This document shows, in pieces, positions 7,106 through 12,870 of a stretch of 18,196 nucleotides of DNA (the first letter of the stretch is position 1; each line of letters opens with the position of its first letter). Both the position numbers and the translations under genes were made by a program. The stretch is from Patescibacteria group bacterium (GTDB taxonomy: Bacteria; Patescibacteriota; Saccharimonadia; Saccharimonadales; CAIOMD01), in NCBI GenBank assembly GCA_025453305.1, contig JALOQO010000002.1, positions 1 to 18,196 of the forward strand, in the 5' to 3' direction. The notes under the pieces are model-generated. The model had not been told where the DNA came from and made no database searches. It saw only the letters and a program-made list of their open reading frames with translations.

Positions 7106-8197
7106 ATGTCGCACCAAAAACGGGGAATTATCCCTAAGAAGCAGATAAAGAATGTACGAAAGAAAATTCATAAGTATGGTTTAGTTACCGTCAATGCTGC
7201 AATAATTGTTGCAGTAACCGGTTTTGTTTGGGTTGGCCAAAATAGCGCCAGTACTTCCGCTAACAACTTTTCGCTAGCTTCTAATAATAATGATAATTCA
7301 CAGCCTGCACCGCTAGATAAATTATCCAGCGCTGACATTGCTGCTAATATAGCGTTGACATCTGGACTACCCCAAGAAATAATGGTGGTTAATCAGGCGG
7401 ATTCTTACAAAACGCAATTAACCCAAGCCGCTATCGAAGAATCTGTAGTTTCTAAACCACAGGTTGTAACCGGTGGCTCTCAATCTAAGTATGAAATTAC
7501 AACCTATGCCGCCAAGGAGGGCGATACCGTTCCTATTGTAGCCGAAAGTTATGGTGTTTCAGCTGATACCATAAAGTGGTCTAACGGCTTAACCAACGAT
7601 GATTTACCGGTTGGTAAGAAAATTAAAATACCGCCTGCTAACGGTATTGTATACACTGTTAAGCCGGGTGATACACCAACTACTTTAGCGAATGCTTATC
7701 AATCTTCATCAGAGGCAATCATTGCATTTAATGACGCAGAAAACGGTCTTAAAGAAGGTGATACGATATTAATTCCAGACGGTAAACCACCAACGCCTGC
7801 TCCAAGCTCTAGCAGAAGAACTTCTACTAGATCTACTACAACGACTACTTATAGCAACTATGTTCCTCAATACGGTGGTAACGGTTACGCAAGAGGTTAC
7901 TGTACATGGTATGCTGCCAGCAGGGTCCCGGTACCTAGCAACTGGGGTAATGCTAACACCTGGGATAATCGCGCAAGGGTATCTGGATGGACGGTTAGTT
8001 CCGTGCCGGTTGTTGGTGCTGTTGCGCAACGAGATGGTGGTTACGGCGGGCTTGGACATGTAGCTATAGTAGAAGCCGTTAGCGAAGATAAAACCATGAT
8101 TATTTATTCGGATATGAACGGTTTAGCCGGTTATGGTAGGGTAGGTACCAGCGGCTGGGTATCGGCTAGCAGTTACAGTAGTTACATTTACAGATAA
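7106..8197 (+). CDS. Membrane-anchored or secreted peptidoglycan hydrolase, two LysM plus CHAP
   Basis: Likely cleaves peptide bonds of peptidoglycan outside the cell (CHAP: cysteine, histidine-dependent amidohydrolase/peptidase). From ATG 7106 it has 363 residues: a basic N-terminus, one hydrophobic helix (about 25-43) acting as signal or anchor, and a low-complexity stretch. LysM 1 (about 131-175, KEGDTVPIVAESYGV to VGKKIKIP) and LysM 2 (about 182-224, YTVKPGDTPTTLANAY to EGDTILIP) follow. A Ser/Thr/Pro/Arg linker leads to the CHAP domain (about 259-363). The catalytic cysteine is C266 in GYCTWY and the histidine H318 in GLGHVAIVE. GTG 7034 is in frame and would add 24 polar residues, but it lies inside a hairpin. 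Neither start has a good Shine-Dalgarno, so the start is uncertain. The gene has its own promoter and terminator. Possible roles are daughter-cell separation, remodelling, or acting on a host wall. Confidence 0.93.
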   Translation: MSHQKRGIIPKKQIKNVRKKIHKYGLVTVNAAIIVAVTGFVWVGQNSASTSANNFSLASNNNDNSQPAPLDKLSSADIAANIALTSGLPQEIMVVNQADSYKTQLTQAAIEESVVSKPQVVTGGSQSKYEITTYAAKEGDTVPIVAESYGVSADTIKWSNGLTNDDLPVGKKIKIPPANGIVYTVKPGDTPTTLANAYQSSSEAIIAFNDAENGLKEGDTILIPDGKPPTPAPSSSRRTSTRSTTTTTYSNYVPQYGGNGYARGYCTWYAASRVPVPSNWGNANTWDNRARVSGWTVSSVPVVGAVAQRDGGYGGLGHVAIVEAVSEDKTMIIYSDMNGLAGYGRVGTSGWVSASSYSSYIYR

Positions 8198-8217
8198 TTT
8201 AAAAGAATTTAAACATG

Positions 8218-8252
8218 CAGTACCGCTTTTTAGGGGCGGTACTGTTTATTTA
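8218..8252 (+). terminator. Intrinsic terminator after the LysM-CHAP gene
   Basis: CAGTACCGC (8218-8226) pairs perfectly with GCGGTACTG (8236-8244), a 9-bp GC-rich stem with a 9-nt loop. It is followed by TTTATTTAT. Confidence 0.85.
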
Positions 8253-8281
8253 TATCTGTAATCTGGTAAAATTATAGAACA

Positions 8282-9574
8282 ATGTTTGTAGATGTAGTGT
8301 CGGTAAAAATTAAGGCAGGCAATGGCGGTAGTGGAATCGTTAGTTTTAGGCATGAAAAGTATGTAGATAAGGGTGGCCCAGATGGTGGCGATGGCGGAAA
8401 CGGCGGCGACATCATCTTTGTTGCATCCCGAAACGAAAATACCTTAGCAAATTTTAGATATCACAAAGAACTTGTAGCAGAAAACGGTGAATCTGGCGGA
8501 AAGCGCAAAAAACATGGCAAATCAGGTAAAGATTTATTTATAAAAGTACCGGTTGGAACGGTAATTATCGATACCCAAACAAGCGAAATCATTGCCGATT
8601 TAATAGAAGATGGTGAACAAACAATAATCGCCAAAGGCGGTGAGGGTGGTTTTGGGAATGCTCATTTTACCAGTTCGGTTCGCCAAGCACCCAGAATAGC
8701 CGAAAAGGGCGAACAGGGTGAGCGAAAAAGCTTAACTTTAGAGCTAAAACTAGTAGCCGATATTGCGCTGGTTGGTTTTCCTAATGCCGGTAAAAGCTCT
8801 TTCTTAAGTGTTATTAGCAATGCTAGGCCAGAAATTGGTGAATATGCCTTTACCACCAAGGTTCCCAACCTTGGTGTTGTTGATATTAATAATACCAGTG
8901 TGCTAGTTGCCGATATACCAGGGCTAATTAGTGGCGCTAGCCAGGGTAAGGGGCTTGGTGATGAGTTTTTAAGACATATAAGCAGGTGCCAGGTACTTTT
9001 GCACTTAATAGACTCTACAAGTAACGATATTACAGAAGATTATCTAACTATCAGGCGCGAACTAAAACTATACAGTAAAGAGCTCGCCGAAAGACAACAT
9101 ATTATTGTTCTTACTAAAATTGATTTGCTTGATACCGATTTAATTGATATGCAAAAAGAGTTATTATCTAAGGTGGTTAAATTTGACCATCCTATTTTTG
9201 CCATATCGTCTCAAGCACATATCGGCGTTAAACAACTACTACATTATGCTGTTGATGTGGTTCAGCGAGCCTATCACCAACTAACCAATACAAGTGGTTC
9301 GGATAATATGAATCAAGAAGGTTTACCGATAATTCGCCTTGCAACCACTGATTTACCTTGGCGGGTAACTAAAAAAGACGAAAAACACTATCATATTAAA
9401 GGTAACCGAATAGAAAAGTTTGCCAAACGAACAGATTTTAGTAATCCGCACGGAGTTGCTCGGCTTAAAGATATTATGAACAAAATGGGAATCAATAAAG
9501 AGCTTGTTAAACAAGGCATTAAGCCAGGTGATTCAATATCTATAGGCCAAATTGATGACACAATTAAATTCTGA
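8282..9574 (+). CDS. obgE: GTPase ObgE/CgtA
   Basis: An essential GTPase of late 50S ribosome assembly and stress control. The 430-residue protein has all three domains. The Gly-rich Obg fold spans 1-157 (GNGGSG, GGPDGGDGGNGGD). The G domain has G1 GFPNAGKS (165-172), G2 TTK (191-193), G3 DIPG (211-214), G4 TKID (278-281) and G5 SSQ (309-311). The C-terminal OCT domain runs from about 350 to 430. Motifs and length are those of a functional enzyme. The start at ATG 8282 gives the canonical N-terminus MFVDVV. There is no Shine-Dalgarno; TAAAAT (8267-8272) lies 9 nt upstream, so the mRNA may be leaderless. The 3' end overlaps the photolyase start by 20 bp, so the two genes probably share a transcript. 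Confidence 0.98.
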   Translation: MFVDVVSVKIKAGNGGSGIVSFRHEKYVDKGGPDGGDGGNGGDIIFVASRNENTLANFRYHKELVAENGESGGKRKKHGKSGKDLFIKVPVGTVIIDTQTSEIIADLIEDGEQTIIAKGGEGGFGNAHFTSSVRQAPRIAEKGEQGERKSLTLELKLVADIALVGFPNAGKSSFLSVISNARPEIGEYAFTTKVPNLGVVDINNTSVLVADIPGLISGASQGKGLGDEFLRHISRCQVLLHLIDSTSNDITEDYLTIRRELKLYSKELAERQHIIVLTKIDLLDTDLIDMQKELLSKVVKFDHPIFAISSQAHIGVKQLLHYAVDVVQRAYHQLTNTSGSDNMNQEGLPIIRLATTDLPWRVTKKDEKHYHIKGNRIEKFAKRTDFSNPHGVARLKDIMNKMGINKELVKQGIKPGDSISIGQIDDTIKF

Positions 9575-10928
9575 TTTATTAGATACTAGAAATAGGCTAA
9601 TAAGCAATAAAGCCTTAAAGCCCGGAAAATCAGTTTTATATATAATGAGCCGCGATAGGCGGATTAAATATAATTATTCTCTTGCTACCGCACAACAATC
9701 AGCCATACAGCAAAAACTGCCCTTGGCGGTGGTTTATTGCTTATATAAGGTAGAAAACCGCGCCCGTGAGCATCTAAAATTTATTTTAACTGGCCTAAAA
9801 GAACTAGAATCAGATTTGAAACAATATAATATACCGCTAATGTTATTATTCGGTGAACCGGAACGGGTTTTACCGGGCTTAATACACCACACTCAACCTT
9901 GCCAGGTTTTTGTTGATTTTAATCCTTTAAATCATGCCAAAAAATGGCAAAAAGAACTGTCTAAAATTGTACCGTTAGTGTGTGTAGATAGCCATAATAC
10001 CGTACCCGCCTGGGTTGCGAGTGATAAACAAGAATACAGCGCCCGCACTATTCGGCCCAAAATACATCACCATTTAAATGATTTTTTAGTACCGCCACCA
10101 GATATTATTAATCACCCCTATATATGGCCGGGTAAGGTTATGAATCTAGAGCAATTAAAAGACCTTACAAACAAATTATTGTCCAAATATCAGCCCAATA
10201 ATACAAATCTTGGCTTTAAATCGGGCCCTAGAGCAGCCAGAAAGCGCCTAGAAAGCTTTATTAGTAGTAAGTTAGCCAATTATGCCACTAATAGAAACAA
10301 CCCCGCCATAAACGATCTTAGTGGTTTAAGCCCTTATTTGCATTTTGGGCAAATTAGTAGCACCGAAGTGTTAATTAGAGTAAAATCAGCACTCAATAAC
10401 GACAGTAGATTGCAAACTGGCCATGATATTTTGCTAGAGGAAATGATTATTAGAAAAGAGCTGTCCGATAACTATTGTTTATATAACACAAATTACAGAT
10501 CTTTAAAGGGTGCGCCAGATTGGGCCATACAAACGCTTAATAAGCACCGGAACGATCCAAAGGAATTTTTGTATAATTACGGTGATTTTGAACAGGCAAG
10601 AACCCATGATCCGGCCTGGAATGCTGCCCAAAGAGAACTACTTAAAACCGGTAAAATGCATGGTTATATGCGAATGTATTGGGCTAAAAAGGTGCTAGAA
10701 TGGTCAAATTTGCCCGAGGAAGCTATAAATATACTAATTAGATTAAACGATTTTTACAGCCTAGACGGCGGAGACCCCAACGGATATGTGGGTATTTTAT
10801 GGAGCATAGCAGGTTTGCATGATCGCCCATGGGGTGAGCGCCCAGTCTACGGAACAGTTCGCAGTATGGTCTACGGTGGCTTAAAACGGAAATTCCCCAT
10901 ACAAGACTACATTATAAAAAACAGTTGA
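9555..10928 (+). CDS. phr: Class II CPD photolyase
   Basis: Uses FAD and blue or near-UV light to split cyclobutane pyrimidine dimers. The protein has 457 residues from ATG 9555; the frame also opens at TTG 9552. Class II features are SPYLHFGQIS (about 259-268), RKELSDNYCLYNTNY (about 300-314), KTGKMHGYMRMYWAKKVLEWS and the C-terminal DPNGYVGILWSIAGLHDRPW plus GERPVYGTVR. The tryptophans in MYWAKK and VLEWS are those of the class II electron-transfer path. The N-terminal alpha/beta domain (about 25-180) is present. LDGGDPNGY carries Gly where the family usually has Arg (LDGRDPNGY, from memory). The start overlaps obgE by 20 bp. The stop codon TGA lies inside the -35 box of the next promoter. 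A photolyase suggests a light-exposed or environmental lineage rather than a deep-body host associate; that is inference. Confidence 0.95.
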   Translation: MTQLNSDLLDTRNRLISNKALKPGKSVLYIMSRDRRIKYNYSLATAQQSAIQQKLPLAVVYCLYKVENRAREHLKFILTGLKELESDLKQYNIPLMLLFGEPERVLPGLIHHTQPCQVFVDFNPLNHAKKWQKELSKIVPLVCVDSHNTVPAWVASDKQEYSARTIRPKIHHHLNDFLVPPPDIINHPYIWPGKVMNLEQLKDLTNKLLSKYQPNNTNLGFKSGPRAARKRLESFISSKLANYATNRNNPAINDLSGLSPYLHFGQISSTEVLIRVKSALNNDSRLQTGHDILLEEMIIRKELSDNYCLYNTNYRSLKGAPDWAIQTLNKHRNDPKEFLYNYGDFEQARTHDPAWNAAQRELLKTGKMHGYMRMYWAKKVLEWSNLPEEAINILIRLNDFYSLDGGDPNGYVGILWSIAGLHDRPWGERPVYGTVRSMVYGGLKRKFPIQDYIIKNS

Positions 10929-10953
10929 CAAAAATTTTATAATAGTTTACTAT
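10925..10953 (+). promoter_or_regulatory. Strong promoter of the noncoding RNA gene
   Basis: A perfect TTGACA (10925-10930), a 17-nt AT-rich spacer, then TACTAT (10948-10953, 5 of 6 matches to TATAAT). The -35 box contains the stop codon of the photolyase gene. The predicted transcript starts at about 10960. It is one of the two best consensus promoters I find in the window. Confidence 0.8.
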
Positions 10954-11162
10954 GTTATTTGTTCGGGGCAAAAACATAAGTATTTTGCCCGAGTATTTTA
11001 ACAAGACGGACAGAAAGTTAAGGTTGCGTGGCTAATTAAAGTTTATATTTTAGACTTTAGCTAGCCGCGCAACCGCGTGGTACCGTTGGGTACAACAACG
11101 CCAAGTAGCGCGAGCAACGACGCTCCGTACTTAGGTAGTGTGCCCCTACAAGGAGGAACCAG

Positions 11163-11213
11163 ATGAAGTTCACCACGCCCCCCGAGGTTCGCAAGGCCCG
11201 CTGCTGGTCCTGA
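11163..11213 (+). other. 16-codon frame with a near-perfect Shine-Dalgarno inside the noncoding RNA
   Basis: AAGGAGG (11150-11156) lies 6 nt before ATG 11163. The frame reads MKFTTPPEVRKARCWS and stops at TGA 11211-11213. Nearly every third base is G or C, unlike the neighbouring genes, but the whole RNA is GC-rich, so this is weak evidence for coding. It may be a real leader-type peptide, or the purine-rich motif may be a structural or ribosome-binding element of the RNA. I do not claim it is translated. Confidence 0.3.
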
Positions 11214-11392
11214 CGGACTGAGCCGGCCTTGACAACCCTCTGGCAGCGCGGGATAGGGCAAGGTTTCAGGCCTCGTAACCACCTCGCGCCGAGCACCTAG
11301 TCCCCCACTTGGTGGGCGGAGAGAGACCTCTCTCCGCCCACCTCGGGCAATTTTTGGAACTTTCTGTCCGTTCCCACCTAGATTTTTTACCA

Positions 11393-11417
11393 GCCACCAA
11401 TATCGGTGGCTTTTTTG
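11393..11417 (+). terminator. Intrinsic terminator of the noncoding RNA
   Basis: GCCACC (11393-11398) pairs with GGTGGC (11405-11410) around loop AATATC, followed directly by six T residues (11411-11416). It lies 21 nt beyond the closing helix of the RNA and 11 nt before the sbcB start. Confidence 0.85.
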
Positions 11418-11427
11418 TTATTATAGG

Positions 11428-12870
11428 ATGGTGCAAGAGACACTTTATTTTTATGATTTAGAAACTAGCGGTGTAAACCCTAGGGCAGATCGCATAATGC
11501 AGTTTGCCGGCCAGCGAACCGATTTAGACTTAAAACCTATTGGCCAGCCCGATAACTTTTTGATATCACTAACAGACGATATTTTACCTGTTCCAGAAGC
11601 AATCTTAATTACCAGCATCACACCACAGCAAACCCGCCAAGACGGCATTAGCGAAAAAGATTTTGCCAAATGGTTTTATAAAGATGTAGCTACCCTAAAA
11701 ACTACCATACTTGGCTATAATTCATTACGATTTGATAATGAATTTATTAGGTTTTTAATGTGGCGAAACTTTTATGATGCCTATCTTTGGTCTTATGATC
11801 AAACTAGTACTTGGGATATTTTAGACACCGTTCGTATGACCAGAGCCTTAAGACCAGGCGGTATAGAGTGGCCGTTTTCTAGCGAGGGTAAACCAACAAA
11901 TAGGCTCGAAATGCTAACTTATATAAACAAGCTTGAGCATAATAATGCACATGATGCCTTAAGCGATGTAAACGCCACTATTGCTGTAGCAAAATTAATT
12001 AAAACTAACCAACCAAAACTATTTTCGTACCTATTTGATATGAGAAATAAAAAAGCTATCCAAAAGCTAGTGAACAGTGAGACACCTTTTGTTTATACAT
12101 CTGGTAGATACCCTTCTGAAACACTACATACTACCGCCGTTGTTAGGCTTAGTGACCACCCAAGCTATAATGGCGGGCAAGTGCTAGTATATGATTTAAG
12201 GCACAACCCAGAACCGTTTATGAGCCTTACCATAGAACAACTAGAAGAGCGCCTAAAATACACCAAAGACCAAAATGCCGACCCCAGACTGCCCGTAAAA
12301 GCTTTGGCCTTTAACAAGTGCCCAGCGGTTGCTCCATTAGCTGTTTTAGACAAAAAAGCGCAAAAAAATATAAATCTAACACCAGATCAAATCAATAATA
12401 ATTTAAAGATTCTGTACAGCGACCCAACTTTTGTAGAGAGAATCAGGCAAGTATTTTTGCGTCAAAAAGAATCACATCAACAGGCTCTATTACCCAATAT
12501 ATATTCTGTCGATGGTCAACTATACGATGGTTTTGTATCTGATAAGGATAAGCATTTTTGCCAACAAATTAGAGAAAGCTCGGCGACAGAACTAGCCGAT
12601 TTGCACCCAGCTTTTGGTGATGAACGATTAACCCCGCTGTTGTTACTGTATAAGGCTAGGCAAATGCCAAAATCACTTAGCGAACAAGAGCAAGCCCAAT
12701 GGGAATCGTATAAAAATACCAAGTTAACAACCGGCAATGATAATTCTATGCTGGCGAATTACTTTAAAGTTATTAAACAGCTATATGAAACAACAAAAGA
12801 TGATTCTAAGCAGGCGCTATTAAAAGATTTGTGGTTTTGGGGTGAAAGCATTGCTCCAGCTGATATTTAA
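11428..12870 (+). CDS. sbcB: Exonuclease I (SbcB-like), 3'-5' single-strand DNA exonuclease
   Basis: Degrades single-stranded DNA from the 3' end in recombination and mismatch repair. At 480 residues it matches the size of E. coli exonuclease I. The DEDDh active site is complete: D10 and E12 in YDLETSG, D103 in GYNSLRFDNEF, H175 in AHDALSD and D180. The H-to-D spacing is that of the E. coli enzyme. The later SH3-like and helical regions (about 200-480) also align in style with SbcB, including an ALAFNKCPAVAPL stretch (about 295-307). The ATG at 11428 is only 11 nt beyond a terminator and has no Shine-Dalgarno. GTG 11431 is next in frame, 6 nt after a TATTAT box (11419-11424), so the true start may be leaderless at either codon. 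The stop shares TTAA with the convergent gene. Confidence 0.93.
   Translation: MVQETLYFYDLETSGVNPRADRIMQFAGQRTDLDLKPIGQPDNFLISLTDDILPVPEAILITSITPQQTRQDGISEKDFAKWFYKDVATLKTTILGYNSLRFDNEFIRFLMWRNFYDAYLWSYDQTSTWDILDTVRMTRALRPGGIEWPFSSEGKPTNRLEMLTYINKLEHNNAHDALSDVNATIAVAKLIKTNQPKLFSYLFDMRNKKAIQKLVNSETPFVYTSGRYPSETLHTTAVVRLSDHPSYNGGQVLVYDLRHNPEPFMSLTIEQLEERLKYTKDQNADPRLPVKALAFNKCPAVAPLAVLDKKAQKNINLTPDQINNNLKILYSDPTFVERIRQVFLRQKESHQQALLPNIYSVDGQLYDGFVSDKDKHFCQQIRESSATELADLHPAFGDERLTPLLLLYKARQMPKSLSEQEQAQWESYKNTKLTTGNDNSMLANYFKVIKQLYETTKDDSKQALLKDLWFWGESIAPADI

Follow-up and report, generated by a model that had tools for sequence, protein, structure and literature searches.

A structured unit of about 460 bases lies between two DNA-repair genes, phr and sbcB, in the window, by which we mean the whole stretch of 18,196 nt that was analysed, and this unit is a real feature of the DNA and a single-example candidate RNA. 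It is best read as a single-copy, lineage-specific inserted unit that probably gives rise to an RNA of roughly 460 nt, which would also form the leader of sbcB. The first-pass annotation had described it as a complete RNA gene, a reading that is unproven, and the unit is better regarded as a good orphan candidate than as a demonstrated new class. If it is transcribed, one lineage of bacteria with small genomes would have acquired a large structured RNA, and a DNA-repair gene would have been brought under a new leader at a junction that is well under 150 bases in most of the relatives examined.

Anatomy, fold and signals of the unit

The spacer runs for 499 nt from the phr stop codon (10928) to the sbcB start (11428). 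Its features and the flanking genes are given in Table 1.

Table 1. Features of the phr-sbcB spacer and flanking genes, in window coordinates
Feature	Position	Strand	Remarks
phr (DNA photolyase domain)	9552..10928	+	stop codon overlaps -35 box of promoter-like site
Promoter-like site, TTGACA-17-TACTAT	10925..10953	+	10/12 matches
5' hairpin, right after expected transcription start	10962..10993	+	MFE and centroid
Closing helix, 5' strand	11005..11019	+	fold and inverted-repeat search
Long hairpin, 23 pairs (3 are G-U on plus strand), one internal A-C mismatch	11022..11074	+	
GC-rich core (62% GC), modelled as R1	11075..11300	+	plus-strand fold weakly better than shuffles
Putative 16-codon ORF MKFTTPPEVRKARCWS, stop TGA	11163..11213	+	AAGGAGG at 11150-11156, six nt before ATG
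Perfect 14-bp GC-rich hairpin	11311..11342	+	fold and inverted-repeat search
Closing helix, 3' strand	11358..11372	+	14 Watson-Crick pairs and one G-U
Terminator-like hairpin (7 bp, loop 6) and six T, first T within stem	11392..11416	+	
sbcB (exonuclease I: RNase_T and Exonuc_X-T_C domains)	11428..12870	+	start codon backed by G001 homologue

The unit is closed by a perfect helix of 14 bp (11006-11019/11358-11371), to which G11005-U11372 adds a 15th pair. Nowhere else in the window is there a perfect 14-bp inverted repeat with arms about 100-600 nt apart; the mean in 100 dinucleotide shuffles of the window is 0.07. This helix and several internal stems had been pointed out in the first-pass annotation, and three strong hairpins are present (Table 1). 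The plus strand of the unit (10960-11417) folds with an MFE of -207.4 kcal/mol (z -9.24), a value that none of 100 shuffles equalled. When 301 windows of 150 nt were scanned on the plus strand, the three with the lowest z all overlapped the unit. The minus strand of the whole unit has a fold z of -10.57. For the core alone the values are -1.52 on the plus strand, where 13 of 200 shuffles fold equally well, and -3.25 on the minus strand. Because the z of the core is unremarkable and the minus strand folds too, the significance of the fold must be due to the long stems, palindromic as they are in the DNA itself. The suggestion that the core is an ornate structured RNA is thus given little weight by its plus-strand fold.

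Since both strands fold strongly, folding alone leaves the strand unsettled. Five G-U pairs are present on the plus strand in the near-perfect stems (one in the 5' hairpin, one in the closing helix and three in the hairpin at 11022-11074). An A-C mismatch corresponds to a G-U pair on the opposite, minus strand; one lies inside the hairpin at 11022-11074 and one just outside the closing helix. Such mismatches were counted in the closing helix and that hairpin only, and the numbers are small. The wobble pairs and the orientation of the promoter-like and terminator-like sites favour the plus strand, although neither is proof.

Two further observations concern folding. The next-lowest values of the plus-strand scan after the three of the unit (z -4.2 and -3.9) were obtained at 8101-8310, where a LysM-CHAP gene ends and a gap separates it from obg. 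By eye, a 9-nt complementarity was seen between TTGCCCGAG (10985-10993) and CTCGGGCAA (11344-11352), which if paired would form a pseudoknot across the closing helix; a rough estimate places it within chance.

The unit is rich in GC within AT-rich surroundings, as had been noted earlier, with a GC content of 0.576 between 11005 and 11372 and of 0.624 in the core against 0.392 and 0.383 in the two flanks. This richness had also been taken to be typical of a stable RNA. The RNase P RNA of the same genome has a GC content of only 0.478, and the GC richness of stable RNAs therefore covers part of the excess at most.

A single promoter-like site was found in 10800-11500 (701 nt), both strands taken together, with a shuffle mean of 0.5, and one terminator-like site, with a shuffle mean of 0.7. 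Given these chance means, the two signals carry weight by their order and place and not by their number. The promoter had been called a consensus one; the site is present but falls short of full consensus. In the same way the terminator with six T residues exists as a terminator-like hairpin, but the number of such sites is not beyond chance. The hairpin part of this site spans 11392-11411, and between the end of the T run and the start codon of sbcB there are 11 nt, so that sbcB would have to be read through from the unit or from further upstream. These 11 nt leave no room for another promoter, and sbcB would therefore be fed by read-through. By position the unit is the leader of sbcB, as well as a possible gene. 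Its independent transcription, as proposed in the first-pass annotation, is plausible from the signals but unproven.

The AAGGAGG motif and the ATG at 11163 form the sole Shine-Dalgarno/start pair on either strand of 10929-11427 for the motifs and spacings tried. Among 2000 shuffles of the unit, one had AAGGAGG at 4-9 nt from an ATG, three had AAGGAG there and eight AGGAGG; these figures serve as a guide only, as the test was devised after the site had been noticed. A count by eye showed that 14 of the 15 codons after the ATG of the MKFTTPPEVRKARCWS ORF end in G or C, and in the predicted fold this ATG lies in an eight-base loop. The putative 16-codon ORF, with its perfect ribosome-binding site, is without explanation within the main reading.

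Known RNA families and the search for homologues

The size of the unit and its closed multi-branch fold would suit a diverged member of one of the known large RNA families (raiA/ModT, tmRNA, RNase P, SRP, 6S, or a group I or II intron). However, no match at the gathering score was obtained with Rfam over the whole window, and relaxing the limit to E 10 over 10900-11440 gave 13 matches (best E 0.26), each below half the gathering score of its family. This is in agreement with the earlier description of the unit as unclassified. The raiA motif (RF03072), to which a link had been suggested, is absent from these 13 matches and the suggestion is not upheld; a raiA search of 40 genomes matched none of them, but no control genome matched either and the search carries no weight. 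ARAGORN detected no tRNA or tmRNA within the window, and neither tmRNA (RF00023) nor RNase P RNA (RF00010) is matched in the unit at even half its gathering score; a standard RNase P RNA lies elsewhere in the genome of the window (G000:C97:2073-2518). A diverged member of a known large family is accordingly a very improbable explanation. With regard to a retron msr-msd RNA, for which the locus only was considered, there is no adjacent reverse transcriptase gene, the neighbours being photolyase and exonuclease I. No such RNA is described for these bacteria in the titles and abstract openings listed from the literature.

Some features of the known RNAs in this family of bacteria were seen in passing. 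The RNase P RNA of the window's genome (L049) is 446 nt in length compared with 345-394 nt in five family relatives. The extra length is seemingly in part a long stem, with one piece measuring 226 nt compared with 156-171 nt in seven relatives. A tmRNA (RF00023) scored above the cut-off in six of nine genomes, and the three without one (G000, G003 and G004) all belong to the window's family. G003 is about 95% complete, and in G000 none was found in the available part of the draft. It is possible that tmRNA is diverged or missing in part of this family.

The genome of the window is a 97-contig draft, about 70% complete, of which 660 kb was covered, and further copies of the unit within it could therefore be missed. 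A blastn search of 60 genomes found the unit only in its own genome. The same type of search yielded the unit itself and short chance matches in 12 others among 392 genomes of the order, and the unit itself and one 30-nt match among 379 genomes of the phylum (the three sets overlap and each includes the own genome, so the counts are not additive). The matches in the 12 order genomes (query 11015-11370, E 0.007-0.05) were rejected, being 18-30 nt long and scattered over different parts of the query. Of their 13 loci, 12 are spanned by a stop-free frame of 124-914 codons and the other (L006) by one of 57; L009, the sole locus of the 13 whose sequence was read, holds what appears by eye to be a GTPase gene. 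The phylum match (G488, E 9.5e-4) was also rejected, as it lies inside an open frame of 712 codons.

A covariance model of the core, R1, was made from one sequence given twice and therefore reaches fairly similar relatives only; in addition, the initial genome filter passed it few candidates. In 197 relatives and in the 379 phylum genomes R1 found itself only, and with laxer filters in 36 genomes there was one extra match of 22 nt (E 3.5). Nothing was matched in plasmids or phages with an E limit of 0.1. A hidden protein encoded by a 118-codon open frame on the minus strand was considered and rejected, with 0 of 85 candidates at E up to 1. In the same search for a protein, a peptide pattern picked out 234 stretches of genome contigs and 35 of viral contigs, none of which was confirmed. 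A scan with the pattern CAAGGAGGNNNCAGATGAAG gave 17 viral stretches and at least 117 genome stretches, and these 134 loci were searched with R1. Among the matches listed, the best outside the window (L179, 17.5 bits, E 0.0089) covers 24 nt at the CAAGGAGGNNNCAGATGAAG pattern itself, and two run from end to end (L141, 13.0 bits, E 0.41; L189, 13.1 bits, E 0.14). An nhmmer search of the same loci gave no E below 0.06 among the matches listed, and blastn on the first 97 gave E values down to 4e-5 over 20-29 nt at the selecting pattern. In 94 of the 134 listed loci a frame of 60 codons or more begins at the ATG of the pattern, and most of the 134 therefore look like ordinary gene starts. Five other patterns scanned against viral contigs returned no stretches and one returned L207 only, which was rejected with an R1 match over just 36 nt (10.6 bits, E 0.065).

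Positive controls help in reading these results. With the same blastn, the RNase P DNA of the window's genome was found in 53 of the 60 genomes, own included, as against one of 60 for the unit. As RNase P was recovered and the unit was not, and as RNase P lies elsewhere in the genome, the idea of a divergent housekeeping RNA was set aside as unlikely. A second single-sequence model (R2), made from the 226-nt RNase P piece, scored 101-157 bits at the RNase P loci of all seven relatives, which shows that such a model works once a locus is in hand and not that the initial filter would pass that locus. The missing homologues are informative for RNAs conserved like RNase P and less so for a fast-changing RNA. 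In the sets searched, no convincing homologue of the unit was found outside its own genome.

The obg-sbcB junction in relatives

A gene for sbcB is present in 75 of the 79 genomes examined, own included, and 30 loci were compared, 29 of them from relatives. In 22 of these 29 no more than 149 nt separate the end of obg from the first sbcB residue aligned. Two others, G001 from the same family and G066 from another family, have phr before sbcB and thus the same obg-phr-sbcB order as the window, with a phr-sbcB gap of 18 nt in G001 and about 44 nt in G066 versus 499 nt in the window. At the remaining five there is another ORF between, or no obg in the stretch examined. It had been proposed that homologues be collected from the sbcB-phr regions of relatives, and what these regions hold are empty sites in place of an RNA: nhmmer with all filters off did not pick up the unit at any of the 29 sbcB loci, and R1 found nothing in the phr-sbcB stretches of G001 and G066. 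The phr-sbcB junction of G001 is an empty site. It is simplest to suppose that the lineage of the window gained the unit; that the others lost it is possible but costlier.

Among the loci compared, G000, G001 and G066 are the only ones in which phr itself (9552-10928 in the window; L203 and L204) separates obg from sbcB, the two genes being directly adjacent in 22 of the 29 loci of relatives. This may reflect either a second, older gain at the junction or repeated loss.

Possible origins and comparison with known systems

The reading that we tentatively prefer combines a gained transcription unit, an RNA of about 458 nt and read-through to sbcB. A DNA unit of about 460 bp, perhaps of horizontal origin, would have been inserted between phr and sbcB once the obg-phr-sbcB order existed. 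Transcription would proceed from the promoter-like site at 10925-10953 with a start near 10960. The 5' hairpin would cap the resulting RNA of about 458 nt, the 14-15-bp helix would clamp it and the terminator at 11392-11416 would release it. Occasional read-through would supply sbcB, such that the unit would be an RNA in its own right and, at the same time, a long leader lowering sbcB expression. In favour of this reading, the fold and the closing helix are far outside shuffles and the promoter-like and terminator-like sites are co-oriented. Against it, the plus-strand fold of the core is ordinary and that of the minus strand is equally good or stronger. A bolder version, in which the unit would be the earliest example found of a large-RNA class new to science and spread by horizontal transfer among poorly sampled lineages, with a putative translated 16-codon ORF held in a clamped fold and a switchable leader for an exonuclease gene, is distinctly improbable.

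Long palindromes and a lack of relatives would also suit an inert or selfish inserted DNA element of the MITE-like kind, in which terminal inverted repeats of 14-15 bp (11005/11372) and two subterminal hairpins enclose foreign GC-rich filler that has no RNA function. This explanation is somewhat unlikely. It would account for palindromic repeats and hairpins that fold on both strands, for a core without a special fold, for the empty site in relatives and for a composition unlike that of the flanks. However, the unit is present as a single copy within 660 kb of a genome that is about 70% complete, and its end sequence GGACAGAAAGTT occurs exactly only at its own two ends, with three other places in the genome differing by one mismatch. 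The 7-bp direct repeat TGTTATT (10953-10959 and 11416-11422), a candidate target-site duplication, lies outside the inverted repeats, and 318 of 2000 shuffles contain one as long. The promoter-like site, the 5' hairpin and the terminator also lie outside the inverted repeats and are ordered as in a transcription unit. Very little probability attaches to an artefact of assembly or binning in which a foreign GC-rich read or contig was fused in. The composition break, the draft state of the genome (97 contigs, about 70% completeness) and the lack of a convincing match elsewhere would be consistent with this, but both flanking genes are intact with the unit confined between them, the AT-rich stems and the terminator are part of the same palindromic design, and a chimera would require two breakpoints at gene borders.

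Alternatively the unit might act in cis as an attenuator of sbcB, which together with the inert element is a serious rival to the preferred reading, in which ribosomes on the 16-codon ORF, or a ligand, would switch the terminator at 11392-11416. The placing of the terminator-like hairpin so close to sbcB, with 11 nt left before the start codon, the consensus ribosome-binding site with its ATG and the complementarity of TTGGTGG (11309-11315) to the terminator arm CCACCAA (11394-11400) all point in this direction. The antiterminator pairing of TTGGTGG, the one candidate tried, nevertheless costs 25.8 kcal/mol when forced (-181.6 compared with -207.4). Furthermore, the absence of any trace of the unit from the 29 sbcB loci of relatives means that its association with sbcB is not conserved, and in 24 of the 29 the gene before sbcB, obg or phr, comes to within 149 nt of the first residue aligned. 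A length of 458 nt is also large for an attenuator. We consider this explanation unlikely, and the gained transcription unit with read-through to sbcB is preferred to it.

MITE-like elements are characterised by terminal inverted repeats, internal hairpins and absence from the same site in relatives. The terminal inverted repeats, hairpins and empty site are common to these elements and the unit, which differs from them in being single-copy in the 660 kb covered, in that no partner ends were found there and the flanking repeat is of a length often reached by chance, and in its promoter-like and terminator-like signals. Leader-peptide attenuators have a small ORF with a ribosome-binding site and a terminator-like hairpin just before the downstream gene. 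Both of these features are shared by the unit, which in contrast is much longer and has no conserved link with sbcB and no credible antiterminator. RNA classes of the DIMPL type rest on comparative support, and for the unit there is no second sequence. It does resemble the candidates of the DIMPL pipeline in being a long GC-rich intergenic region without a recognisable protein (PMC8723152). The raiA motif is reported to be conserved across Bacillota and Actinomycetota, in over 2,500 species (PMC11706538), whereas the unit is found in one genome and gives no raiA match with Rfam at E up to 10. The published consensus of raiA has two pseudoknots and the helices P1-P8 (PMC11706538). The likeness between the two is that raiA/ModT (RF03072) is also a structured RNA with its own terminator (PMC11706538), and its model of 209 positions is near the size of the core.
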